This document shows, piece by piece, positions 6,057 through 46,675 of a stretch of 64,000 bases of DNA; positions within the stretch are counted from its first letter, which is position 1; every line of letters begins with the position of its first letter. Location of the stretch: positions 2,241,506 to 2,305,505 of the forward strand of contig JARFIW010000593.1 in assembly GCA_036346225.1 (NCBI GenBank). Direction: 5' to 3'. The DNA is from Platerodrilus igneus (taxonomy: Eukaryota; Arthropoda; Insecta; Coleoptera; Lycidae). Below the pieces are notes generated by a model that saw nothing but the letters and a program-made list of their open reading frames with translations, was not told the origin of the DNA and made no database searches. Made by a program: the position numbers and the translations under genes.

Positions 6057-8059
6057 TCGTCTTTACGACCTCTTCAGCACAGTTTTCAACCGGAAATCAT
6101 CTAGCATGTGCGAATTTGTCGCAAACGTTAATTCAATAGCAATCACGTCAGTAAAAAAGATGGCATCCCCCACTTGGTAGCTATACGAGATACGACACAT
6201 GATACAGAATTGTAACCAAAGATATTTATATCTTGGGTCCATTGTCAAACATAATCATTATTAAATTATTACAACGCAGAGCAGTATCTCCCAAATAAAT
6301 CTACACAAGGACAATAGAAACGGTAATTTTTGCTCCAATGTTTTAGTTCAGTACACCGAACTGTACTAAATATTTAGTGTGTCGATGTTAATCTTAAAAT
6401 AAAAGTGCAACGCAAATATGAATAAAATACTACACAAAATGCAGTTTTTGGCAACTCTTACAACTTGACCGTTCCAAACAGTCATGTAAACAATAAAATA
6501 ATACGTGAAGTAAATAGCTTTATTGGGCAAAGGATAATTAAAATTCAAATCGTATTTCAAGAAAATACTATTGCCATGTGCATGAAAAACAAATATGTGG
6601 GATTATTGTGAAATACCATTATTGAGTTGACAAAAGTGATAAAGAGTAAAAGTGCTACTTAAATTACGTAAGTCTTTCATCTCTAGTACAAGTATCTGGT
6701 TTCCTAACAAGGTAGCATAATAATTACAAACCTTATGTTAAATGGATCTATAAGTGAATGTGCAAACAACATGCAAATTGAACAAAAAAATACTTGCTAT
6801 TTATTTTTATAAGATTATACCCTTTATGGGCACATCATAAATTTCTTCTTATTTTACTTCTACATCTATGAACAAAATCTTCGCTGGAAGTGTTAGGGGC
6901 ATGGAATATCTTAATTTGATTCTTAATAGGTTTTAAGTATATATCTCAAGTGGAAGTTTTAGAAAGCTAAAACTTAGTACATGAATATAAATTCTTAAAT
7001 AAAATGTTAAATAACAGGACACAAGAGAAATAGGTGAAAAATCAGTTTTGTATAAGAATTTTATTTCGGAAATTAAGCTTTGAGTGTCTGATGAGCATTA
7101 TCCAAAATGAATAATAACCGTGACGAACCTGTGCCTAATATGTATAGTCCTACCATTTATGTAGTGTGAAAATACAAATGTGTAATGAATACCTTACCCA
7201 AATTATACCTTTAGGGTTTTATTAAATGGTGGCTAATGTAAGTCAAACTACACACGCACATAACATAAATCAATCTACACTAAATTCCAGTTCAAACGTT
7301 GATAATTAGGTACTTATGGGTGACATCTAACTAAAGTGGCAAATAACATTCCCAACAAGTGCATATTTCGAAGTTAGTTCTGCAGAATAATTGAAATAAA
7401 TAACAGATAACTAATAAGTGTAAATTGAATATGACAGCTGGCCGTTTACAAGTGGTGTTAAATTTAGAACTATAAGTGAAAGGGGAGTTTAGACTGGAAT
7501 AATTAAAGGAAACGTGCACCAGGCACAATCCCCTTATTAGGAAACAGTCATGCATAACAAATTAATAGAATAGCTATTAGTAGAACACAATACAGCTATT
7601 GTCGCCATAATAATAATATTTTTTAGAAGATGATAATAATATGGCATTATTTTAATCAGAACACGTATAATTAGATAATGTTCTAATGAGCCGAAATAAA
7701 GAGACACAAAAATCGGCGCTTCAAACCCGGCCCTAAAATTATATTTGTGATTTATCTGAGACAAACTTAAACGCTTTTGATACAGCGAAAGTCGATAGCT
7801 TTGAGGGTCAGAAAATTTTCCAATGACCACTTGATAATTAAAATATATTTGTTTTTAAAAAGTTTCCCCACGAATCTACTTTTCTCGGTTAGTTATTCAA
7901 CGAGGAAACCTTCGTAAAAAAAAGAACGGAATATCAAAATATTCTGTAAGAAATTTAACAAAAATAATTGAAAAATAATGACATAAACGATAAACCAAGC
8001 AAATAACTGTCGAAAGCTTCTAGGAGTCGGTTAAATAAATTTATTGAAACAAAAATTCT
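6057..8059. other. AT-rich DNA, nothing recognised
   Basis: Only short, uninformative open frames occur here (up to 97 codons on the minus strand near 7.5-7.8 kb). No known domain, RNA or repeat was recognised. Confidence 0.35.
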
Positions 8060-9499: not shown

Positions 9500-9511
9500 C
9501 AATACTGTATC

Positions 9512-11037
9512 ATGACTCAAAATGAACGGTTGAACTCTATACAAATAGAACACGTATTTGTAAACCAAAACGAACTAAATATCCTGTCCAAAGAACTAAA
9601 CTTCTCAATTGCACTTATCAAATCCTCTAATATTCCCAAAACTATCCAAAAACGCAAAATACCTCGCAAATCTAAACCACCTCGCTTGTACGGTCTTCCT
9701 AAAGTCCATAAACCTGATGTCCCTCTGCGTCCGATAGTTAGCACAATTGACTTGCCAATCTACCATCTGGAAAAATACCTGGCAAATTTCTTAAAACCTT
9801 ATTCCGGTAACACCCCTACTAATGTTTTAAACTCCACTCATTTCATAGAACTAATTGCAAATATGGAGCTAGACCCTAATGATATACTAGTCAGTTTTGA
9901 CGTAACATCCCTATTTACAAACGTACCGGTCATAGACACTTTCTCCATTATTAAACAACTCATACCTCAAGAAAACGAATTTGAGTACCTGGCCACGTTC
10001 ATTGAAAAATGCTTAACTTTTACCTAGACGGACAATTTTACAAACAAACTTCGGGCACACCAATGGGCTCACCTCTATCACCTATTGTGGCCACTATATT
10101 CATGGAGTCTTTGGAATCCATGGCTCTAGAATCCACAGACCTTAAACCAAAAACTTGGCTCCGTTATGTAGATGACACCTTTGTAATTTGGCCCCATGGA
10201 CATCAAACGCTCAATAATTTTCTAGACCACATAAACAATCAACATAAAGATATTAAGTTCACTATAGAAATTGAAAAGAACGGAACTCTGCCATTCCTTG
10301 ACGTTCTAGTGGAGCGCCAACCTAACGGACGACTAGGTCATTCCGTATATCGAAAACCCACACACACAGATAAATACCTACATGCGTCGTCACATCATCA
10401 TCCCTCACAAAAATCATCTCTAGTCCACCGTGCAATTAAGATTTCACAACCAGAACACTTATCTAATGAACTGACCCATCTTAAAACCAGTCTTATAAAA
10501 AACGGCTATCGTAACTCAGATATCGGCAGAGTAATAACCCGGCATCTGCATCCTACACGAACCCCCAAACCACGCTGTAATCCCGATACATGTTCTTTAG
10601 CAATCCTTCCATATATACACAGAGTAACAGACCGAATTGGCAAAATTCTACGTAAACACAACATTAAAACAATCTATAAACCCACCAATAAAATTTCACA
10701 AATATTACCAACCCCAAAAAATTCCGAAAATAGTCTTAAAGCCCCAGGCGTATATAGTATACCTTGCCGTTGCGGTTTAGTATACATAGGAGAAACAGGA
10801 CGGTCAGTACAGACTAGACTAAACGAGCATAAGCGATGCTTAAGAACAAGCCAGTACAATCGCTCAGCGGTGGCCGAACACCAACATAAAACAGGCCATA
10901 CCATTAACTTTGACAAAACGAAACTAATTGCCAGAATTCCATTTTTCTACAATAGAAAAATTAGAGAATCCATAGAAATCAATAAAAATCCTAATAGCCT
11001 AAACAAAGACGATGGCTACTACTTTTCCCCCATTTAG
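9512..11037 (+). pseudogene. PLE reverse transcriptase / GIY-YIG endonuclease, frameshifted
   Basis: Two open segments in different + frames (9512-10027 and 10009-11037) together cover one PLE polyprotein. The first holds PPRLYGLPKVHKP and RPIVS (early RT motifs) and VSFDVTSLFTNVP (motif A with its catalytic Asp). The second holds SGTPMGSPLSP (motif B), LRYVDDTF (YVDD at residues 53-56 of that segment) and the downstream palm/thumb region. Its C-terminal GIY-YIG domain has GVY at about 247-249, YIG at 259-261, Arg 270 and an EH pair at 273-274. A CRC pair just before YIG resembles the Cys pair found in some PLE endonucleases. The frames break between motifs A and B, near 10015-10027, through a one-base offset. 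There is no in-frame continuation, so the copy is inactive as read. Otherwise the protein is well preserved, so the insertion is fairly young. Confidence 0.9.
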
Positions 11038-11136
11038 AAAACAAGCCTATGTTCACAACAGCGGAACCGCGACGTTCACTGATCCGCTACGACACTCCTC
11101 TCTATTCATGATCGCTCATGCATTAAGTTCTCGCTC

Positions 11137-11144
11137 TATATAAG
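11137..11144 (+). promoter_or_regulatory. TATA-like box in PLE 3' tail
   Basis: TATATAAG lies about 100 bp after the PLE stop codon and about 155 bp before the hammerhead-like hairpin. PLE terminal repeats normally carry the promoter, so this position is expected if the tail is a pLTR copy. Function is inferred. Confidence 0.4.
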
Positions 11145-11291
11145 CTACCACTTTCGCTACTTTCACCAGTTACTTCGCCACAAAACACCTTTTTGCTAGT
11201 CTGCTAGTTCAGAAGTACTCTTCTCTTTACACTTTAACTTGTCTACTTAATATTATCTTTTTATTATTTTTGATTTTATTACTTATTCATT

Positions 11292-11340
11292 TTCTTGTCC
11301 TGATGAAGCCCCTTACAAAAGTGGGCTAAACGTCGACCTT
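11292..11340 (+). other. Hammerhead-like hairpin in PLE tail, degenerate
   Basis: CTGATGA at 11300-11306 matches the first hammerhead core strand. It is followed by a GC helix (GCCC 11308-11311 with GGGC 11323-11326) and then TAAACGTC (11327-11334). A canonical core would have GAAA where TAAA stands. One extra base (A11307) separates the core from the helix, or pairs with T11327. Stem I is weak. It is best read as a decayed or divergent PLE hammerhead. Confidence 0.5.
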
Positions 11341-11440
11341 AATTTATAAAATGACACGGTCCCAACCCGGAACCATAAATATTTATAATGACTCCGGCCG
11401 TAAAGCCTCCGACAATATTGCAGGTCACAATAGATTATAG

Positions 11441-13305: not shown

Positions 13306-14089
13306 TGTAACAAAAACAACAAAGTCTATTTGCAATAACGCAGTTCTCTATTCTTCTTAATCTTCTTTGGGGATTAAACCACTCATAGTTTTTAAAATTA
13401 TCTTTATTAATGACCTCGGTCATGGATGGAAACGTTAATAAAGATAATTTTAAAAACTATGAGTGGTTTAATCCCCAAAGAAGATTAAGAAGAATACTAA
13501 ACAAACCATAACAAATATACAGGGAGTATTTACAGTTCTCTATCTTAAAACTCGAACAAAAGGCTCTTCAACATCTACTCTATGCTATAAAAGTTTTCAA
13601 AAGCTCACAACGATTTACTTTGAGAGCATTACTAACAATACGAGTATGATCTTCTAAACACGAAGATTTTATTAACTTAATCTCAAAGCACTACAATTAA
13701 TTTATATACGAAGCACTAATCACTATGATTAATTTATATTACAAATTTATGTCAACAGTAGAATAATTTATATTGCCTATTATAAAACTCTGGGCTAAAG
13801 CTTTACATAATCGGACAGCAATTTATATAAATCTTAATTGTATCATAAAGATCAAGAATATTCCAGTAATTATGAAAATTATTATCTAGAGATTTCTTAC
13901 AACGTCTAGAATATATCCTATTGTAATATTAATAACCTTTAAATGTGAAAGTCTTGTACGTATCAATCAAGTGATCTTCAAAAGGTATAACACCACACAG
14001 GTCCATCGCTCATCCCCTTTGTGCATAAATACCTTGTTTGCGTTCTAAGGTAATTATTTTTAGTCACTTGCAGATCAAGTGGCGTTACA
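13306..14089 (-). repeat. Gypsy 3' LTR (minus copy)
   Basis: The LTR runs on the minus strand from TGTAACG (rc at 14083-14089) to GTTACA (rc at 13306-13311). These are inverted termini typical of LTR elements. Without the PLE-hairpin insertion it is about 590 bp. It aligns over its length with the + LTR at 16641-18510 once the mariner is removed. Confidence 0.7.
13352..13532. mobile_element. PLE-tail hairpin insertion with 11-bp target duplication
   Basis: A perfect 60-bp inverted repeat (13351-13410 and 13435-13494) surrounds a 24-base loop with the tail word GGTCATGGATGGAAACG. The arms match the + strand tail fragment at 51.38-51.44 kb. The insert is flanked by identical CAGTTCTCTAT at 13341-13351 and 13533-13543. 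The sister LTR (16641-18510) lacks the insert, so its structure gives the empty site. This fits the PLE habit of inserting with inverted terminal sequences, here as a tail-only product. Confidence 0.75.
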
Positions 14090-16994: not shown

Positions 16995-18298
16995 AAAGGT
17001 GAGCCAGTCAAACCTGCATTTTTGAAAAGGGCGGGAGAGCCGTGAAAGTGGGCGGGCGAGTTAGCAGGTTATTATTGTGTCCCCCACAACTAAGCATTTC
17101 AGTCGCCATGGAGTAGTGGTCTAAACAACAACGTTCATTCGCTGTGAAAGCGTTTTACCAAGGTGGTAGATATGCAGCCGCTCAGCGTCGTTTCCGAACG
17201 AATTTTCAAATTAATAGAAATAAGCTAGTGCCGTGTGTAAATTCAACCAAATTGTGGGTGACAAACTTTGAAGCAATTGGTGAAACGAGAAGCAGAAGGG
17301 ATGGCAGTGCAAGATCAGTGCGAAGTCCCGCGAATATTGACCGCGTGAGAGTTACTGTGGAAAGAAGCCCTCGGAGATCGGCGCGTCGACTGAGTGCTGG
17401 GCTTTACATGGCAAACACGAGCGTCCGAAGAATCTTGAGGTTAGATTTACACCATCACCCATACAAAATTCAGGTTGTTCATGCTATGAATAAAAACGAT
17501 TTTGTAGCCCGACCGCGTTTTTGTCAAGCGTTGTTGGACATGTTTGATGAAAACGTGGACCTTGTTCACAACCTGTGGATGAGTGATGAGACACATTTCC
17601 ATCTCTCCGGTTTTGTGAATAAACAAAATTTCCGATATTGGAGTGATAAAAACCCTCAACAACTCCATCAAAAACCACTTCATTCAAGCAAGGTAACAGT
17701 TCGGTGCGCAATGTCCTCATTAGGAATCATAGGCCCGTATTTTTTTGAAAATGACAAGGAGCACTGTGAATGCACAACGCTATTCGGAAATGCTGCATTC
17801 GTTCTTCATTCCTCAGCTTCGTCAACATAGAATGAACAATGAAACCTTATTCCAGCAAGACGGTGTCACAAGTCATACAGCCCGTGTGAGTATGAATGTT
17901 CTCAACAATGTTTTTCCAAATAGGGTGATATCCCGAAATGGAACAATTTCTTGGCCTTCAGATCGCCCGACCTCACAGTGTGCGATTTTTTCTTGTGAGG
18001 GTACTTGAAGAGTAAAGACTTTGAACAACGGGCTCCAACGCTTGGGGAACTCCGGTTGGAAATCGAGAAAATTCCTCAGCGTATGCTCCGTGATGTGATG
18101 GGCAGTTTCAGAAATCGCCTACAAGAATGCCTCAATCGGGAGAGACGCCATCTTACTTGCGTTATTTATAAACAGTGAATTGTTGTTTCTTAAATGCTTT
18201 TTAATGTACATTAGGATAGTGACAATAAAATTTTGAAATATTCATTCGTTTATTTTTAACAGTCATTTCAAAAATGCAGGTTTGAAGGGCTCACCCTG
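16995..18298 (+). mobile_element. Mariner-type DNA transposon, about 1.3 kb, TA target
   Basis: Terminal inverted repeats of about 30 bp: left AAAGGTGAGCC then CAAACCTGCATTTTTGAAA, right (read inward) CAGGGTGAGCC then CAAACCTGCATTTTTGAAA. TA dinucleotides at 16993-16994 and 18299-18300 flank it. The uninterrupted site is visible in the other arm of the inverted repeat at 13737-13738, confirming both the TA target and the element limits. The left terminus differs from the right at its first bases, so it is probably immobile even if transposase were supplied. Confidence 0.9.
17108..18178 (+). pseudogene. Mariner-type transposase, DD41D-like spacing
   Basis: A start codon at 17108 is followed by a stop at codon 3, and then the HTH region begins (FAVKAFYQGGRYAAAQRRF). 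The first catalytic Asp is in MSDETHFHLSGF (about 17580-17615), the second in FQQDGVTSHTAR (about 17851-17886), and the third in PDLTVCDFFL (about 17968-17996). I count 41 residues between the second and third Asp. That is the spacing reported for rosa-like mariners; classical mariners have 34. Two frame changes (about 17755-17775 and 17960) and a TGA in place of a Trp codon just after CDFFL break the gene. The protein would cut and paste the element through its inverted repeats. Confidence 0.85.
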
Positions 18299-20992: not shown

Positions 20993-21084
<92 letters not shown>

Positions 21085-21381
21085 AGATGTATCTGTAAAC
21101 AAACTCTATGAAAATAATAGAGCCTATTGACGAATACAAATCGGGCTGGTAGTTATATAGCCATTTACAAAACATTAGCTATTGACGAATACAAATGGCT
21201 GGTAGTTATATAGCCATTTACAAAACATTAGCTAATGTTTTGTAAATGGCTATATAACTACCAGCCCGATTTGTATTCGTCAATAGGCTCTATTATTTTC
21301 ATAGAGTTTGTTTACAGATACATCTTATTTTATATATTGTTTTACACAATTTCTTATTGCGGACTGCAAATAACCGTTCTG

Positions 21382-21422
<41 letters not shown>

Positions 21423-21613
21423 GTAAGATATATCTGTAAACAAACTCTTATGAAAATAATAAGAAGTAATAAAGCTAATGTTTTGTTAATGGCTATATAA
21501 CTACCAGCCCGATTTGTATTTGTCAATGGCTCTTATTATTTTCATAAGAGTTTGTTTACAGGTACATCTTACTTTTTATACAATTTTCTTATTGCGGACT
21601 GCAAATAACTTGT

Positions 21614-21656
<43 letters not shown>
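20993..21656. repeat. R1 repeat: inverted fragment pairs alternating with (AT)n
   Basis: Three (AT)n tracts (20993-21079, 21383-21418, 21619-21655) separate pieces of R1, the repeat that carries hammerheads at 34 kb. A near-perfect palindrome centres on about 21230, with arms of about 100-150 bp holding ATGGCTATATAACTACCAGC. It includes a direct duplication of about 53 bp at 21124-21229. A second inverted junction lies at about 21466, where a minus fragment meets a plus copy starting GAAGTAATAAAGC. Plus copies end with GCGGACTGCAAATAAC right before (AT)n. The hammerhead part itself is absent here. Confidence 0.8.
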
Positions 21657-28631: not shown

Positions 28632-28685
<54 letters not shown>

Positions 28686-28738
28686 TACATCTTATTTCAT
28701 ATATTGTTCTACACAATTTTCTTATTGCGGACTGCAAA

Positions 28739-28794
<56 letters not shown>
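28465..28794 (+). mobile_element. SINE-B copy, (AT)n, R1 fragment, (AT)n
   Basis: A tRNA-like head at 28465-28540 (A-box-like GGTGCAATCGGTTAGC, B-box-like TGTTCAAAACC) leads into the SINE-B body: TTTCAATTAATAGCTCGATT, GAAATGATCATTTAGGC, TTATTTCATCT. (AT)n follows at 28633-28680, then a 62-bp R1 piece ending GCGGACTGCAAATAAC, then another (AT)n at 28743-28794. This head differs from those of the other SINE-B copies. Confidence 0.65.
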
Positions 28795-33611: not shown

Positions 33612-33657
<46 letters not shown>

Positions 33658-33815
33658 ACAAGTTATTTGCAGTCCGCAAAAAGAAAATTGTATATGAAGT
33701 AAGATGTATCTGTAAACAACTCTTATGAAAATAATAAAAGCCATTGACAAATACAAATCGGGCTGGTAGTTATATAGCCATTAACAAAACATTAGCTTTA
33801 TTACTTCATAGGGGA

Positions 33816-33873
33816 GGAAACATCCACTGACCATGGTTTCGGCTTGTTAGCCTCGTCAGAGTGGAATAGTTCC
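33816..33873 (-). ncRNA. Type I hammerhead self-cleaving ribozyme, minus copy
   Basis: On the minus strand: outer stem I GGAA/TTCC, an internal loop, inner stem I TCCACT/AGTGGA, and core CTGACGA (rc 33853-33859). Stem II is GGCT/AGCC with an AACA loop, then GAAA. A very short stem III, ACC/GGT, closes on two bases. The predicted cleavage follows the C complementary to G33829. Every core position matches the hammerhead consensus. The only difference from the + copy within the 58 nt is one base in the stem I internal loop (CTAT versus CCAT). A tiny stem III is usual for hammerheads of PLEs and related satellite elements. Confidence 0.85.
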
Positions 33874-34386
33874 CAAGAACCCTATGAAGTAATCGAAGCT
33901 ATTATAATGATATAATTTCGAAACAATCACTGTACTATGGCAAAAGTAAATAAAACCGCCATCAGGTGATAAAACACCAACACTACTAAAGTGTGGAAGT
34001 ACAGAATTGAACCGAAACTACATAATAAATTTTATAAATGACTATAAAAGTTACTTCACATACAATTTTCTTTTTGGGGACTGCAAATAACTTGTCTTTG
34101 TTTATTTGAATTGCCCTTGGGGCATGAACCCGGGTGTCGCCACGAGAAGGTTTGTTACGTATGCAAATAAATTTTGCAGTAACATTCCGCAAATCTCAAA
34201 GGCATGACGTACTTTTATAGTCATTTATAAAATTTATTATGTAGTTTCGGTTCAATTCTGTACTTCCACACTTTAGTAGTGTTGGTGTTTTATCACCTGA
34301 TGGCGGTTTTATTTACTTTTGCCATAGTACAGTGATTGTTTCGAAATTATATCATTATAATAGTTGATTACTTCATAGGGTTCTTG

Positions 34387-34444
34387 GGAACCATTCCACT
34401 CTGACGAGGCTAACAAGCCGAAACCATGGTCAGTGGATGTTTCC
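34387..34444 (+). ncRNA. Type I hammerhead self-cleaving ribozyme, plus copy
   Basis: Outer stem I GGAA (34387-34390) pairs with TTCC (34441-34444), and inner stem I TCCACT (34395-34400) with AGTGGA (34432-34437). The core is CTGACGA (34401-34407). Stem II GGCT (34408-34411)/AGCC (34416-34419) has an AACA loop and the G10.1-C11.1 closing pair. GAAA follows (34420-34423). Stem III forms A34423-C-C with GGT (34428-34430). Cleavage is predicted after C34431. The stem I internal loop and stem II loop are placed for the tertiary contact that speeds natural hammerheads. Activity is inferred. Confidence 0.88.
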
Positions 34445-34570
34445 TCCCTATGAAGTAATAAAGCTAATGTTTTGTTAATGGCTATATAACTACCAGCCCG
34501 ATTTGTATTTGTCAATGGCTTTTATTATTTTCATAAGAGTTGTTTACAGATACATCTTACTTCATATATA

Positions 34571-36109: not shown

Positions 36110-36153
<44 letters not shown>

Positions 36154-36322
36154 CAGGATACAGGTTCAAGTCCTGTCCAAGACCTTATATTTTCCATCTT
36201 TCAATTACTAGCTCGATTTGAAATGATCATTTGGGCTTTGCATAAAAGTCTAAGTTATTATTTCATCTTATTCACTGTAATACTATAGAGTTTATCAGCT
36301 TACCTTGTGTAATTAACTATCT

Positions 36323-36371
<49 letters not shown>

Positions 36372-36770
36372 TGAATAAGATGAGATAATAACTTAGACTT
36401 TTTATGCAAAGCCCAAATGATCATTTCAAATCGAGCTAGTAATTGAAAGATGGAAAATATAGGGTCTTGGACAGAACTTGAACCTGTATCCTGGTTTTGC
36501 CGGAACCATGCGTTTACCAATTACGCCACCCAGACCGATGACACAATTGGGAAATTTACAAATTTAAATCGTGTACACAACTATACATGAACCTAACTTT
36601 CAATTACGTTTGGCATTTTTGTCAATCATATCTGACATTATCAAGTTTTTGACTTATGTCAGTTATAGACAGAAAGCTACGCTCAAAATTACGGGTATAA
36701 CCCAAGTATTAAATATATAATTATTTTAGATAGTTAATTACACAAGGTTAACTTGGCTATCACCCCAAAG
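36110..36770. mobile_element. Inverted pair of SINE-B copies around (AT)n
   Basis: After (AT)n (36110-36149), a head-truncated + copy runs from ACAGGTTCAAGTCCTG through AGCTCGATTTGAAATGATC to CTTGTGTAATTAACTATC. (AT)n (36326-36370) follows. A minus copy (36371-36770) then has the body, a complete tRNA-like head (rc at about 36473-36540, B-box-like AGGTTCAAG) and the SINE-B flanking segment down to TTACACAAGG. Confidence 0.7.
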
Positions 36771-42621: not shown

Positions 42622-44988
42622 AATATACACATACCCTACATTTGATTTTTTCCCATGCTCCACCCGAAGGTACTACATTGACCAGGAAGCGAGTTCTTTT
42701 TACCTGGAAATTTTTGAATTTTGCCAAACCCTTGCTGTTGCAAGCAAGGCAGAGATCTTTAATGTGCGTGACAACACTCACACACGGGACCTCCATTTTC
42801 CCTGTCATCCGAACGAGGGGGTATTTTTGTGAAAAATGCTCACCTATCATTTTTCAAGCCGATTGTGTCGAGATTTGAAACCGGAACCTTGAACATAGTC
42901 ACACGTAGACCAACTACACCAGCAAGATAGGGATCTTTAACGTACGTGACAACACTCACACACGGGACCTCCTTTTACCTCTCATGCGACCGAGGAAGTA
43001 TTTTTGTGAAAAATGACCGCCGAACATTTTTCAAGCGGACCGTGTCGGGATTCGAACCGGAGCCCTTGGGCGTAGTAGTCACACGTATACCGACTACGCC
43101 ACGGAACCGCCCAAAGTATACACATACCTTACATGTGATTTTTCCAATGCTCCACCCGAAGGTACTACATTGGCCACGAAGCGAGTTTTTTTTTACCTGG
43201 AAAATTTGGAATTTTGCCGAACCCTTGCTGTTCCAAACAAGGTAGGGATCTTTAACGTGCGTGACAACACTCACACACGGGACCTCCATTTTACCTCTCA
43301 TCCGAACGATGGTGTATTTTTGTGAAAAATGTTCGCCTAACATTTTTCAAGTGAACCGTGTCGAGATTCGAACCCGATACCTTGGGCGTTGTAGTCACAC
43401 ACATATCAACAACGCCACGGAGCCGCCTAGTATACACATACCTTACATGTGATTTTCCAATGCTTCACCCAAAGGTACTACATTGGCCAAGAAACGGGTT
43501 TTTTTACCCGAAAAATTTTGAATTTTGCCGAACCCTTGCTGTTCCAAACAAGGTAGGGATCTTTAACGTGCGTGACAACACTCACACACGGGACCTCCAT
43601 TTTACCACTCATCCGAACAAAGGTGCATTTTTGTGAAAAATGACCGCCTAACATTTTTCAAACGAAGCGTGTCGAGATTCAAACCCGATACCTTGGGCGT
43701 TGTAGTCACACACATATCAACTACGCCACGGAGCGGCCTAGTATACACATACCTTACATGTGATTTTCCAATGCTCCACCCGAAGGTACTACATTGGCCA
43801 AGAAACGAGTTTTTTTTACCTGGAAAATTTGGAATTTTGCCGAACCCTTGCTGTTCCAAGCAAGGTAGGGATCTTTAACGTGCGTGACAACACTCACACA
43901 CGGGACCTCCATTTTACCTCTCATCCGAACGAGGGTGTATTTTTGTGAAAAATGTTCGCCTAACATTTTTCAAGCGGACCGTGTCGAGATTCGAACCCGA
44001 TACCTTGGGCGTAGTAGCCACTCACATATCAACTACGCCACGGAGCCGCCTAGTATACACATACCTTACATGTGATTTTCCAATGCTCCACCCGAAGGTA
44101 CTACATTGGCCAAGAAACGAGTTTTTTTTACCTGGAAAATTTGGAATTTTGCCGAACCCTTGCTGTTCCAAGCAAGGTAGGGATCTTTAACGTGCGTGAC
44201 AACACTCACACACGGGACCTCCATTTTACCTCTCATCCGAACGAGGGTGTATTTTTGTGAAAAATGTTCGCCTAACATTTTTCAAGCGGACCGTGTCGAG
44301 ATTCGAACCCGATACCTTGGGCGTTGTAGTCACACACATATCAACTACGCCACGGAGCCGCCTAGTATACACATACCTTACATGTGATTTTCCAATGCTC
44401 CACCCGAAGGTACTACATTGGCCAAGAAACGAGTTTTTTTTACCTGGAAAATTTGGAATTTTGCCGAACCCTTGCTGTTCCAAGCAAGGTAGGGATCTTT
44501 AACGTGCGTGACAACACTCACACACGGGACCTCCATTTTACCTCTCATCCGAACGAGGGTGTATTTTTGTGAAAAATGTTCGCCTAACATTTTTCAAGCG
44601 GACCGTGTCGAGATTCGAACCCAATACCTTGGGCGTAGTAGCCACTCACATATCAACTACGCCACGAAGCCGCCTAGTATACACATACCTTACATGTGAT
44701 TTTCCAGTGCTCCACCCGAAGATACTACATTGGCCAGGAAACGAGTTTTTTTTACCTGAAAAATTTTGAACTTAACCGAACCCTTGCTGTTCCAAGCAAG
44801 GTAGAGATCTTTATCGTGCGTGACAACACTCACACACTGGACCTACATTTTACCTCTTATTCGAACGAGGGTGTATTTTTGTGAAAAATGCTCGCCTAAC
44901 ATTTTTCAAGCGGACCGTTTCGCGATTCGAACCCGGGACCTTGGGCGTAGTAGTCACACACTTACCACTTCGCCACGGAGCCGCCTAG
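42622..44988 (-). repeat. Tandem array of SINE-A units of about 312 bp
   Basis: Head-to-tail SINE-A units, all minus strand. Two incomplete ones lie at 42622-42921 and 42922-43116. Six complete ones follow: 43117-43430, 43431-43741, 43742-44053, 44054-44365, 44366-44677 and 44678-44988. Each has the tail side first (TATACACATACC), then the body (CACGTTAAAGATCCC on minus), then the tRNA-like head (minus strand: GGCTCCGTGGCGTAGTTG as A-box-like and GGTTCGAATC as B-box-like). The three units from 43742 are nearly identical, and outer units are more diverged. The array therefore grew by unequal exchange or similar after a SINE founded it. Confidence 0.92.
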
Positions 44989-45617
44989 TATACACATATC
45001 ACATGCGGAAGCCTAATATTATATATGTCGTGATGTATAAAGCGTGGGAAATCTTATTAGTATTAATCTGTAAATATCGTATAAAGAGCATTTCCAATTC
45101 GAATTTCTAGTGTTAAACAAATATAGTAAATTAAGAAAATTTATGTTGGGATATTGGAGCTTTCCCGTTCTTCATAATCATTAGTTTGTAGATAACCTAA
45201 ATATTATTAACAACATTTAAAACATCTGTTATATTAAAGATAAAATTCTTCATGGCAAACGCTCATAATTTCTAGGAAACATGAAAACAACAAAGGTAAA
45301 AATTAAAATCTGTATCAATAATGGTATAAAATAGCTTCTTATTGTGCATGTAGTGCAGCACACAGTTGTTTTAATCAAAACTTCAAAGGCAACAGTCCAA
45401 ACACTGCTATTTTTCAAGGCAGGTGAACTACAATTCTCCCATTATCTTGTTATTCTAATAAAAAGTTAATAATGGTGAAAATAATAAGAACTCATATATA
45501 ATTTTAGTCTTTAAAAGCTTATCAAATTTCCTTATTGGTCTGGTAAATCTAAATAGCACACACGCTAGAAATAGTTTCAATACAACAGATAACCATCAAT
45601 CCCACAATTATATATCG
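44989..45617. other. Nothing recognised
   Basis: AT-rich DNA after the SINE-A array. Confidence 0.35.
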
Positions 45618-46510: not shown

Positions 46511-46675
46511 GGCTGCCTAGCTCAGCTGGTTAGAGCGTTGATCCGTCTAATCAATGGTCGCAGGTTCAAATCCTGCTGTAGCTGTTCTTTTAGCGGTTTT
46601 CAATTACTAGTTCGATTTGAAATGGTAATTTAACTTTACATAATAAAGTTGGGTTTTCATTTCATCTTATAACTG

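Follow-up and report, generated by a model that had tools for sequence, protein, structure and literature searches.

The insertion and its two hammerheads

The window, by which we mean the whole stretch of 64,000 nucleotides that was analysed, carries a two-direction insertion of a repeat between two (TA)n runs, with one hammerhead motif in each direction, and further copies of the same repeat. It also holds a 5'-truncated Penelope-like element (PLE). The features are given below; unit positions (u) refer to a 507-bp reference unit, and A and B to two end sites, all of which are described in the next section.

33612..33654, unstranded: (TA)n at the left end of the insertion
33648..34051, minus strand: repeat unit in the minus direction (u1-401), its outer end being site B beside (TA)n
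33823..33865, minus strand: type I hammerhead, minus copy, core 33859-33853, predicted cut after the C at 33829
34051..34210, plus strand: partial repeat unit in the plus direction (u347-506), on the inner side of the junction where the two directions meet head-to-head, at 34051
34211..34568, plus strand: repeat unit in the plus direction (u1-358), its outer end being site A beside (TA)n
34395..34437, plus strand: type I hammerhead, plus copy, core CTGACGA 34401-34407, predicted cut after C34431
34564..34654, unstranded: (TA)n at the right end of the insertion
21074..21382, unstranded: short two-direction insertion, diverged, without hammerhead, left end A and right end B
21415..21625, unstranded: second short two-direction insertion without hammerhead, left end A and right end B
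28680..28743, plus strand: repeat fragment (u335-388) between two (TA)n runs
9500..11418, plus strand: 5'-truncated PLE with an RT frame (Pfam) and a GIY-YIG motif (by eye), apart from the insertion and of a candidate mobiliser kind

Both hammerhead copies possess CTGACGA, GAAA, the cleavage C and three helices with stem I open, as in type I. In stem I, 6 inner base pairs are followed by an internal loop (CAU/U in one copy and UAU/U in the other), the outer helix GGGAAC/GUUUCC and one more, closing helix; stem II is 4 bp long, and stem III is self-complementary (ACCAUGGU), the 8-nt self-complementary sequence being ACCATGGT. An earlier note on this DNA had claimed two inverted hammerheads with all conserved core positions, and a layout of a 6-bp inner stem I, an outer stem I, a 4-bp stem II and a minimal stem III; core, stems and loops were indeed located on both strands, and the same layout was seen in both copies. 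Its statement that the copies differ at one base holds inside the motif (about 58 nt), but four differences are found across the full arms, 33691-34051 and 34211-34568, which are identical in 357/361 columns. All four lie in or beside the hammerhead module; perhaps they are copying errors at a stable hairpin.

A scan of the window with a strict hammerhead descriptor gave exactly 2 matches, against 0 in 200 Markov-1 windows, and with one core mismatch allowed the same 2 were recovered, while 40 random windows averaged 0.25; these scans ruled out a chance motif. The covariance-model check proposed in the earlier note gave a divided outcome: RF00163 matched the plus copy, the only hammerhead submitted alone to Rfam, with a score of 22.9 bits (E=0.001 for 131 nt), which falls short of the gathering threshold of 34, a curators' cut-off and not a structural criterion, but it was absent from the whole-window Rfam table at E values up to 10. 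The window hammerheads are real motifs, for which self-cleavage is predicted from sequence. Folding predictions show the hammerhead stems formed in a linear unit, a circular unit and a single arm. When the full window element is folded as one transcript, the stems do not form because they are captured by the antisense arm; since the hammerhead is thus predicted to be locked in a long duplex, the window copy would be silent when read through. In viral contigs, a hammerhead pattern scan returned 5 loci, none with a closed hammerhead, and a 22-mer of the repeat, called R1 in the earlier note, was not found.

A 507-bp repeat with two end sites

A search of the 2.71-Gb assembly with the 83-nt hammerhead module gave at least 42 matches (739 first-look candidates, 40 of them scored). 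These counts are lower bounds, and 20 loci were fetched for unit analysis, the arrays being sampled via the loci that best matched the hammerhead. As to the host, the named protein hits were mostly to insects. The repeat unit is 507 bp long, 35.5% GC and non-coding, the longest open stretch in three joined units being 65 aa; L022:6102-6608 was taken as the reference unit and numbered u1-507, with the hammerhead core at u192 and the predicted cut after u222. Units are arranged head-to-tail; not counting partial or terminal ones, L014 contains 10 complete units and L022 contains 8. The suggestion that R1 is a non-autonomous ribozyme family is supported, as the genome search placed hammerhead copies in this non-coding, head-to-tail unit. 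The accompanying remark that other R1 copies lack the ribozyme stands within the window but not in the genome, where many copies carry the hammerhead; the ribozyme-less copies near 21 kb are short two-direction insertions that end before the ribozyme, where, if a PLE protein copied the RNA, copying would have stopped early. The inverted pair is present but is not peculiar to the window copy, being the recurrent form of two-direction insertions.

The predicted folding energy of one unit's RNA is -147.3, whereas 60 shuffles average -107.0 (sd 5.9), which gives z -6.9. The first 150 nt of the unit (u1-150; L022:6102-6251) also fold better than shuffles (z -6.0), with 367/387 pair cells kept across two subfamilies, and are noted as a putative further structured RNA domain. 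In L014:3330-8375, identity fluctuates along the row of units in an uneven, partly repeating manner, which may reflect a multi-unit template or a later duplication of several units.

The two-direction arrays (15 of them within fetched loci, the other 3 in the window) were head-to-head in 18/18 cases, with minus copies on the left and plus copies on the right. Of their outer ends, 35/36 adjoin a (TA)n run, the exception being the right end of L014. These ends fall into two clusters about 43 nt apart: site A, at about u349-358 (...ACATCTTACTTCATATA), and site B, at about u392-401 (...AACTTGTCTTTGTTTAT). Every scorable array (17/17) has one A end and one B end, a result with a chance of about 8e-6 if A or B were taken at even odds at each end. 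The arrays are distributed as follows.

A-left arrays: L014, L018, L020, L024, L026, L032, L032b (7144-7468), and the window insertions at 21.07 and 21.42 kb
B-left arrays: L021, L022, L023, L025, L031, L033b (6062-7701), L042, and the window insertion at 33.65 kb

For these counts, repeat runs of L031, L032 and L033 with over 1.5 kb between them were taken as separate insertions, as were the two window insertions near 21 kb, which are separated only by (TA)n; L019, whose left end could not be placed, was left out of the A/B count, and the tandem run L031:1-1412, which is cut off, was left out of end scoring. Eight further loci have the repeat in one direction, with the end at A in 6 and at B in 2, and some one-direction insertions stop at varied inner points.

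No two of 14 tabulated arrays have the inversion junction at the same pair of unit positions, and L042 adds a fifteenth junction. In 10 of the 14, the arms are adjacent or share 0-4 bases; one base lies between them at the L021 and L032 junctions, 22 and 43 bases (by eye continuing the plus unit) at those of L022 and L031, respectively, and at the L042 junction the matches overlap by 17 bases. As the junctions differ between arrays, the arrays are separate insertions, and descent from one palindromic master was rejected on these junctions and on the flanks. Several array flanks belong to shared repeat families carrying (TA)n, but by eye no two arrays have the same two-sided flank arrangement. 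In L016, L026, L030, L033 and L042, the (TA)n beside the insertions belongs to another repeat family ending TCACAGCAA(TA)n, and such runs seem to have been used as insertion targets. Any target direct repeat of the repeat insertions is masked by the flanking (TA)n and is not visible.

Conservation of the ribozyme was analyzed within and between two subfamilies, the second of which (L031, L033) is about 82% identical. A first comparison appeared to show a conserved ribozyme, but this arose from loci chosen by their hammerhead, which makes the ribozyme invariant by construction. In 21 hammerhead-covering units of the main subfamily that lay outside the search list, variation was 20/981 in the hammerhead and 157/10266 in the rest of the unit, that is, no extra conservation of the ribozyme. 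A core that is not conserved relative to its flanks had been named beforehand as counting against the earlier reading, and in these unselected units the hammerhead does vary like the rest, so that this objection holds in part. Across both subfamilies (8-sequence alignment), however, 216/224 pairing cells of the hammerhead are kept, with the 8 unpaired cells falling in 5 pairs, and no pair in that alignment is changed on both sides. In the second subfamily, stem III is changed from the window sequence to the equally self-complementary ACCGGCCGGT, a U.U stands at the base of stem II, and the cleavage position is occupied by U in three L031 units. This pattern fits, without proving it, upkeep of the ribozyme in source copies followed by decay after insertion.

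The template for insertion could be an RNA circle or an uncut multimer. A circle may be considered because the array ends lie off the predicted cut and the arrays run across it. Divergence of units was 1.23% within arrays and 1.09% between arrays, with 771/1000 shuffles as low in a permutation analysis; within-array units are thus not more alike overall, which argues against a single circle as the usual template. Private variants common to all four sampled L031 units, and to both L024 units, favor one template in those arrays, whereas L018 and L023, whose arms differ, and L022, whose units are mixed, point the other way.

Penelope-like elements of the same genome

The repeat is not a PLE: it has no frame over 65 aa, and hence none of the RT and GIY-YIG coding of an autonomous PLE. 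As had been stated earlier, no PLE is attached to the insertion itself, but a 5'-truncated one, with RT and GIY-YIG, lies in the same window at 9500-11037. This element has a minimal hammerhead near 11300-11334 with a changed core, for which Rfam gave no hammerhead match.

The PLE is very abundant in the genome, with 44,465 first-look candidates, of which 118 were scored. Among the scored matches, four close head-to-head pairs were noticed rather than drawn from a systematic scan of arrangements. In three of them (C1374, C811 and C537), the left end lies at an inner site, corresponding to A, and the right end, corresponding to B, about 30 nt further, through the tail. By eye, direct repeats of 8-12 bp flank these three pairs, each of which is therefore one insertion. 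The fourth pair, C813, was left out of the count as no PLE end is present in the piece fetched on its left. The genome's PLE pairs thus show both the published behavior of PLEs and the end pattern of the repeat (three of four pairs, the fourth being unscorable).

The repeat and the genome's PLE have in common the order hammerhead, A, B, the minimal PLE hammerhead being upstream of both end sites, although no sequence similarity was found between the repeat and this abundant PLE, and the tail is about 43 nt in the former versus about 30 nt in the latter. The PLE-signature features found in the repeat are (i) two adjacent internal end sites, (ii) a tail at one end and (iii) head-to-head inversion. 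In the available parts of the published accounts, PLEs carry a tail at one of their inverted pLTRs (PMC3846280), and for an Anolis PLE reverse transcription starts at two adjacent internal sites bounding the tail, and AT-rich DNA is cut and extended on each of its two strands (PMC11167929). According to the same source, the top and bottom strands showed no difference in start site in vitro, and hammerhead mutants still inserted; these two results mean that neither a strict pairing of A with B nor a need for cleavage is predicted there.

Mechanism, related systems and further features

The repeat is retrozyme-like in its ribozyme, base composition and arrays, and PLE-like in its ends, so that the simplest account is that a PLE protein copies its RNA. 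We consider it probable that the insertion was made by PLE machinery copying the repeat RNA from both cut DNA strands, given that its outer ends fall on two fixed sites with one at each end, as in the genome's own PLE copies. Under this mechanism, the arrays would be transcribed, and the hammerhead, perhaps acting as a dimer by way of its self-complementary stem III, would cut the transcripts to unit length. The PLE protein would bind what results, a circle or an uncut multimer, and would cleave both strands at (TA)n; one cut strand would start copying at A and the other at B, and the two cDNAs would extend inward over a fraction of a unit or over several until they were joined, often at a few shared bases.

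Among other origins considered, an insertion of retrozyme-like RNA by a LINE-type enzyme through twin priming, the process behind the known 5' inversion of LINEs, seems unlikely to us. It would also yield a head-to-head inversion with small overlaps, and annealing beside simple repeats is possible, but LINEs prime from the 3' end of the RNA, with a second primer that anneals at varied places, whereas here two fixed internal sites are used and the pairing of A with B recurs in the genome's PLE copies. We give even less credence to a DNA transposon of foldback or MITE type that has long terminal inverted repeats, inserts at TA, is moved by a transposase and bears a hammerhead by chance. The long, near-perfect inverted arms of the window insertion, the (TA)n on both of its sides and the non-coding nature of the element agree with it; nevertheless, the same terminal sequence was never seen at both ends of a scorable array, some insertions have only one direction with varied inner stops, many units occur in head-to-tail runs and the center of inversion moves between arrays. 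The foldback transposon was rejected on the unlike ends and the moving center. Least credible is a satellite spreading mainly by unequal exchange and DNA repair, with the hammerhead as a relic without a role, since, for all the long tandem arrays, the uneven, partly repeating unit identities in L014, the lack of within-subfamily ribozyme conservation in unselected units and the mixed units of L022, the dispersed short fixed-end insertions on many contigs require insertion, and the second subfamily keeps most of the hammerhead pairing and a self-complementary stem III.

Returning to copying by PLE machinery, a broader and clearly more tentative proposal, which falls somewhat short of an even chance in our judgment, is that animal retrozymes parasitise PLEs. 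A PLE dimer would cut both (TA)n strands, copying would start at A and at B without exception on a hammerhead-processed template, and the two cDNAs would meet; growing cDNAs might circle the RNA several times before meeting, giving head-to-head arrays. If this were true, the pairing of A with B would hold as a general rule wherever PLEs integrate from two sides, and the hammerhead would serve to make the template.

PLEs have been proposed as likely mobilisers of retrozymes on the grounds that both carry hammerheads and co-exist (PMC7229834, PMC7761336, as available in part). What our results add is that the insertion ends of such a repeat carry the PLE pattern, in one genome, with PLE copies alongside as a control. 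The titles and abstract openings of the open-licence papers retrieved by our literature searches contain no mention of PLE-type ends or of a PLE insertion signature on a retrozyme-like repeat. The question of retrozyme mobility can now be tested with purified PLE protein and unit RNA, and the strict rule of one A and one B end constrains models of PLE integration from both strands.

Compared with the metazoan non-LTR retrozymes, as described in the available part of Cervera and de la Pena 2020 (PMC7229834), the repeat is likewise non-coding and low in GC, with a type I hammerhead and head-to-tail units, and PLEs are present in the same genome in both cases. It shares with the axolotl retrozymes of that report a weak stem III with a self-complementary loop, and with one of them a U.U at the base of stem II, which here is found only in the second subfamily. 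In contrast, its 507 bp exceed the usual 150-450 bp of metazoan retrozymes, and because the repeat lies outside that range, which is one of size and not of mechanism, we call it retrozyme-like. Regular head-to-head arrays with two fixed end sites are not described for retrozymes in the available part of that report. The likeness is one of DNA sequence; abundant linear and circular RNA of unit length is a further mark of retrozymes.

With PLEs, as far as the available parts of PMC3846280 and PMC11167929 describe them, the repeat shares inverted ends in head-to-head orientation, a tail confined to one end, a pair of start sites downstream of the hammerhead, AT-rich targets and tandem or partial tandem copies, but it differs in having no protein, a fuller hammerhead with a stem III, insertion at (TA)n and a longer tail. 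Minimal PLE hammerheads (Cervera and de la Pena 2014; Lunse et al. 2017; both as cited in the available parts of PMC7229834 and PMC7761336) have in common with the repeat hammerhead the type I form, a weak stem III and a possible action as dimers. However, the repeat hammerhead possesses a 4-bp stem II with a tetraloop, a stem I internal loop and a stem III of 2-3 bp, whereas the genome's PLE has the minimal form. Among insects, the pDo500 satellite of Dolichopoda cave crickets comprises repeats 463-505 bp long that carry a type I hammerhead (PMC2837043) and so resembles our repeat in description; head-to-head arrays and fixed ends, as found here, do not appear in the available part of that account.

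Other features were recorded in the window. A tandem satellite at 42921-44998 has a 312-bp unit in 6.7 copies with 93% matches. A second long inverted repeat at 36149-36498 has 99-nt arms (98%) with (TA)n between them, and on the right the arm extends into a tRNA-like match at 36463-36535; more tRNA matches, at 46511, 49562, 61182 and 61790, are possibly tRNA-derived SINEs. A long near-palindrome at 13347-13498, with strong but sub-threshold matches to plant microRNAs in Rfam, is probably another inverted-repeat element. Finally, a reading frame at 17117-17830 encodes a DUF4817 helix-turn-helix, which we take to be part of a mariner-like transposase.
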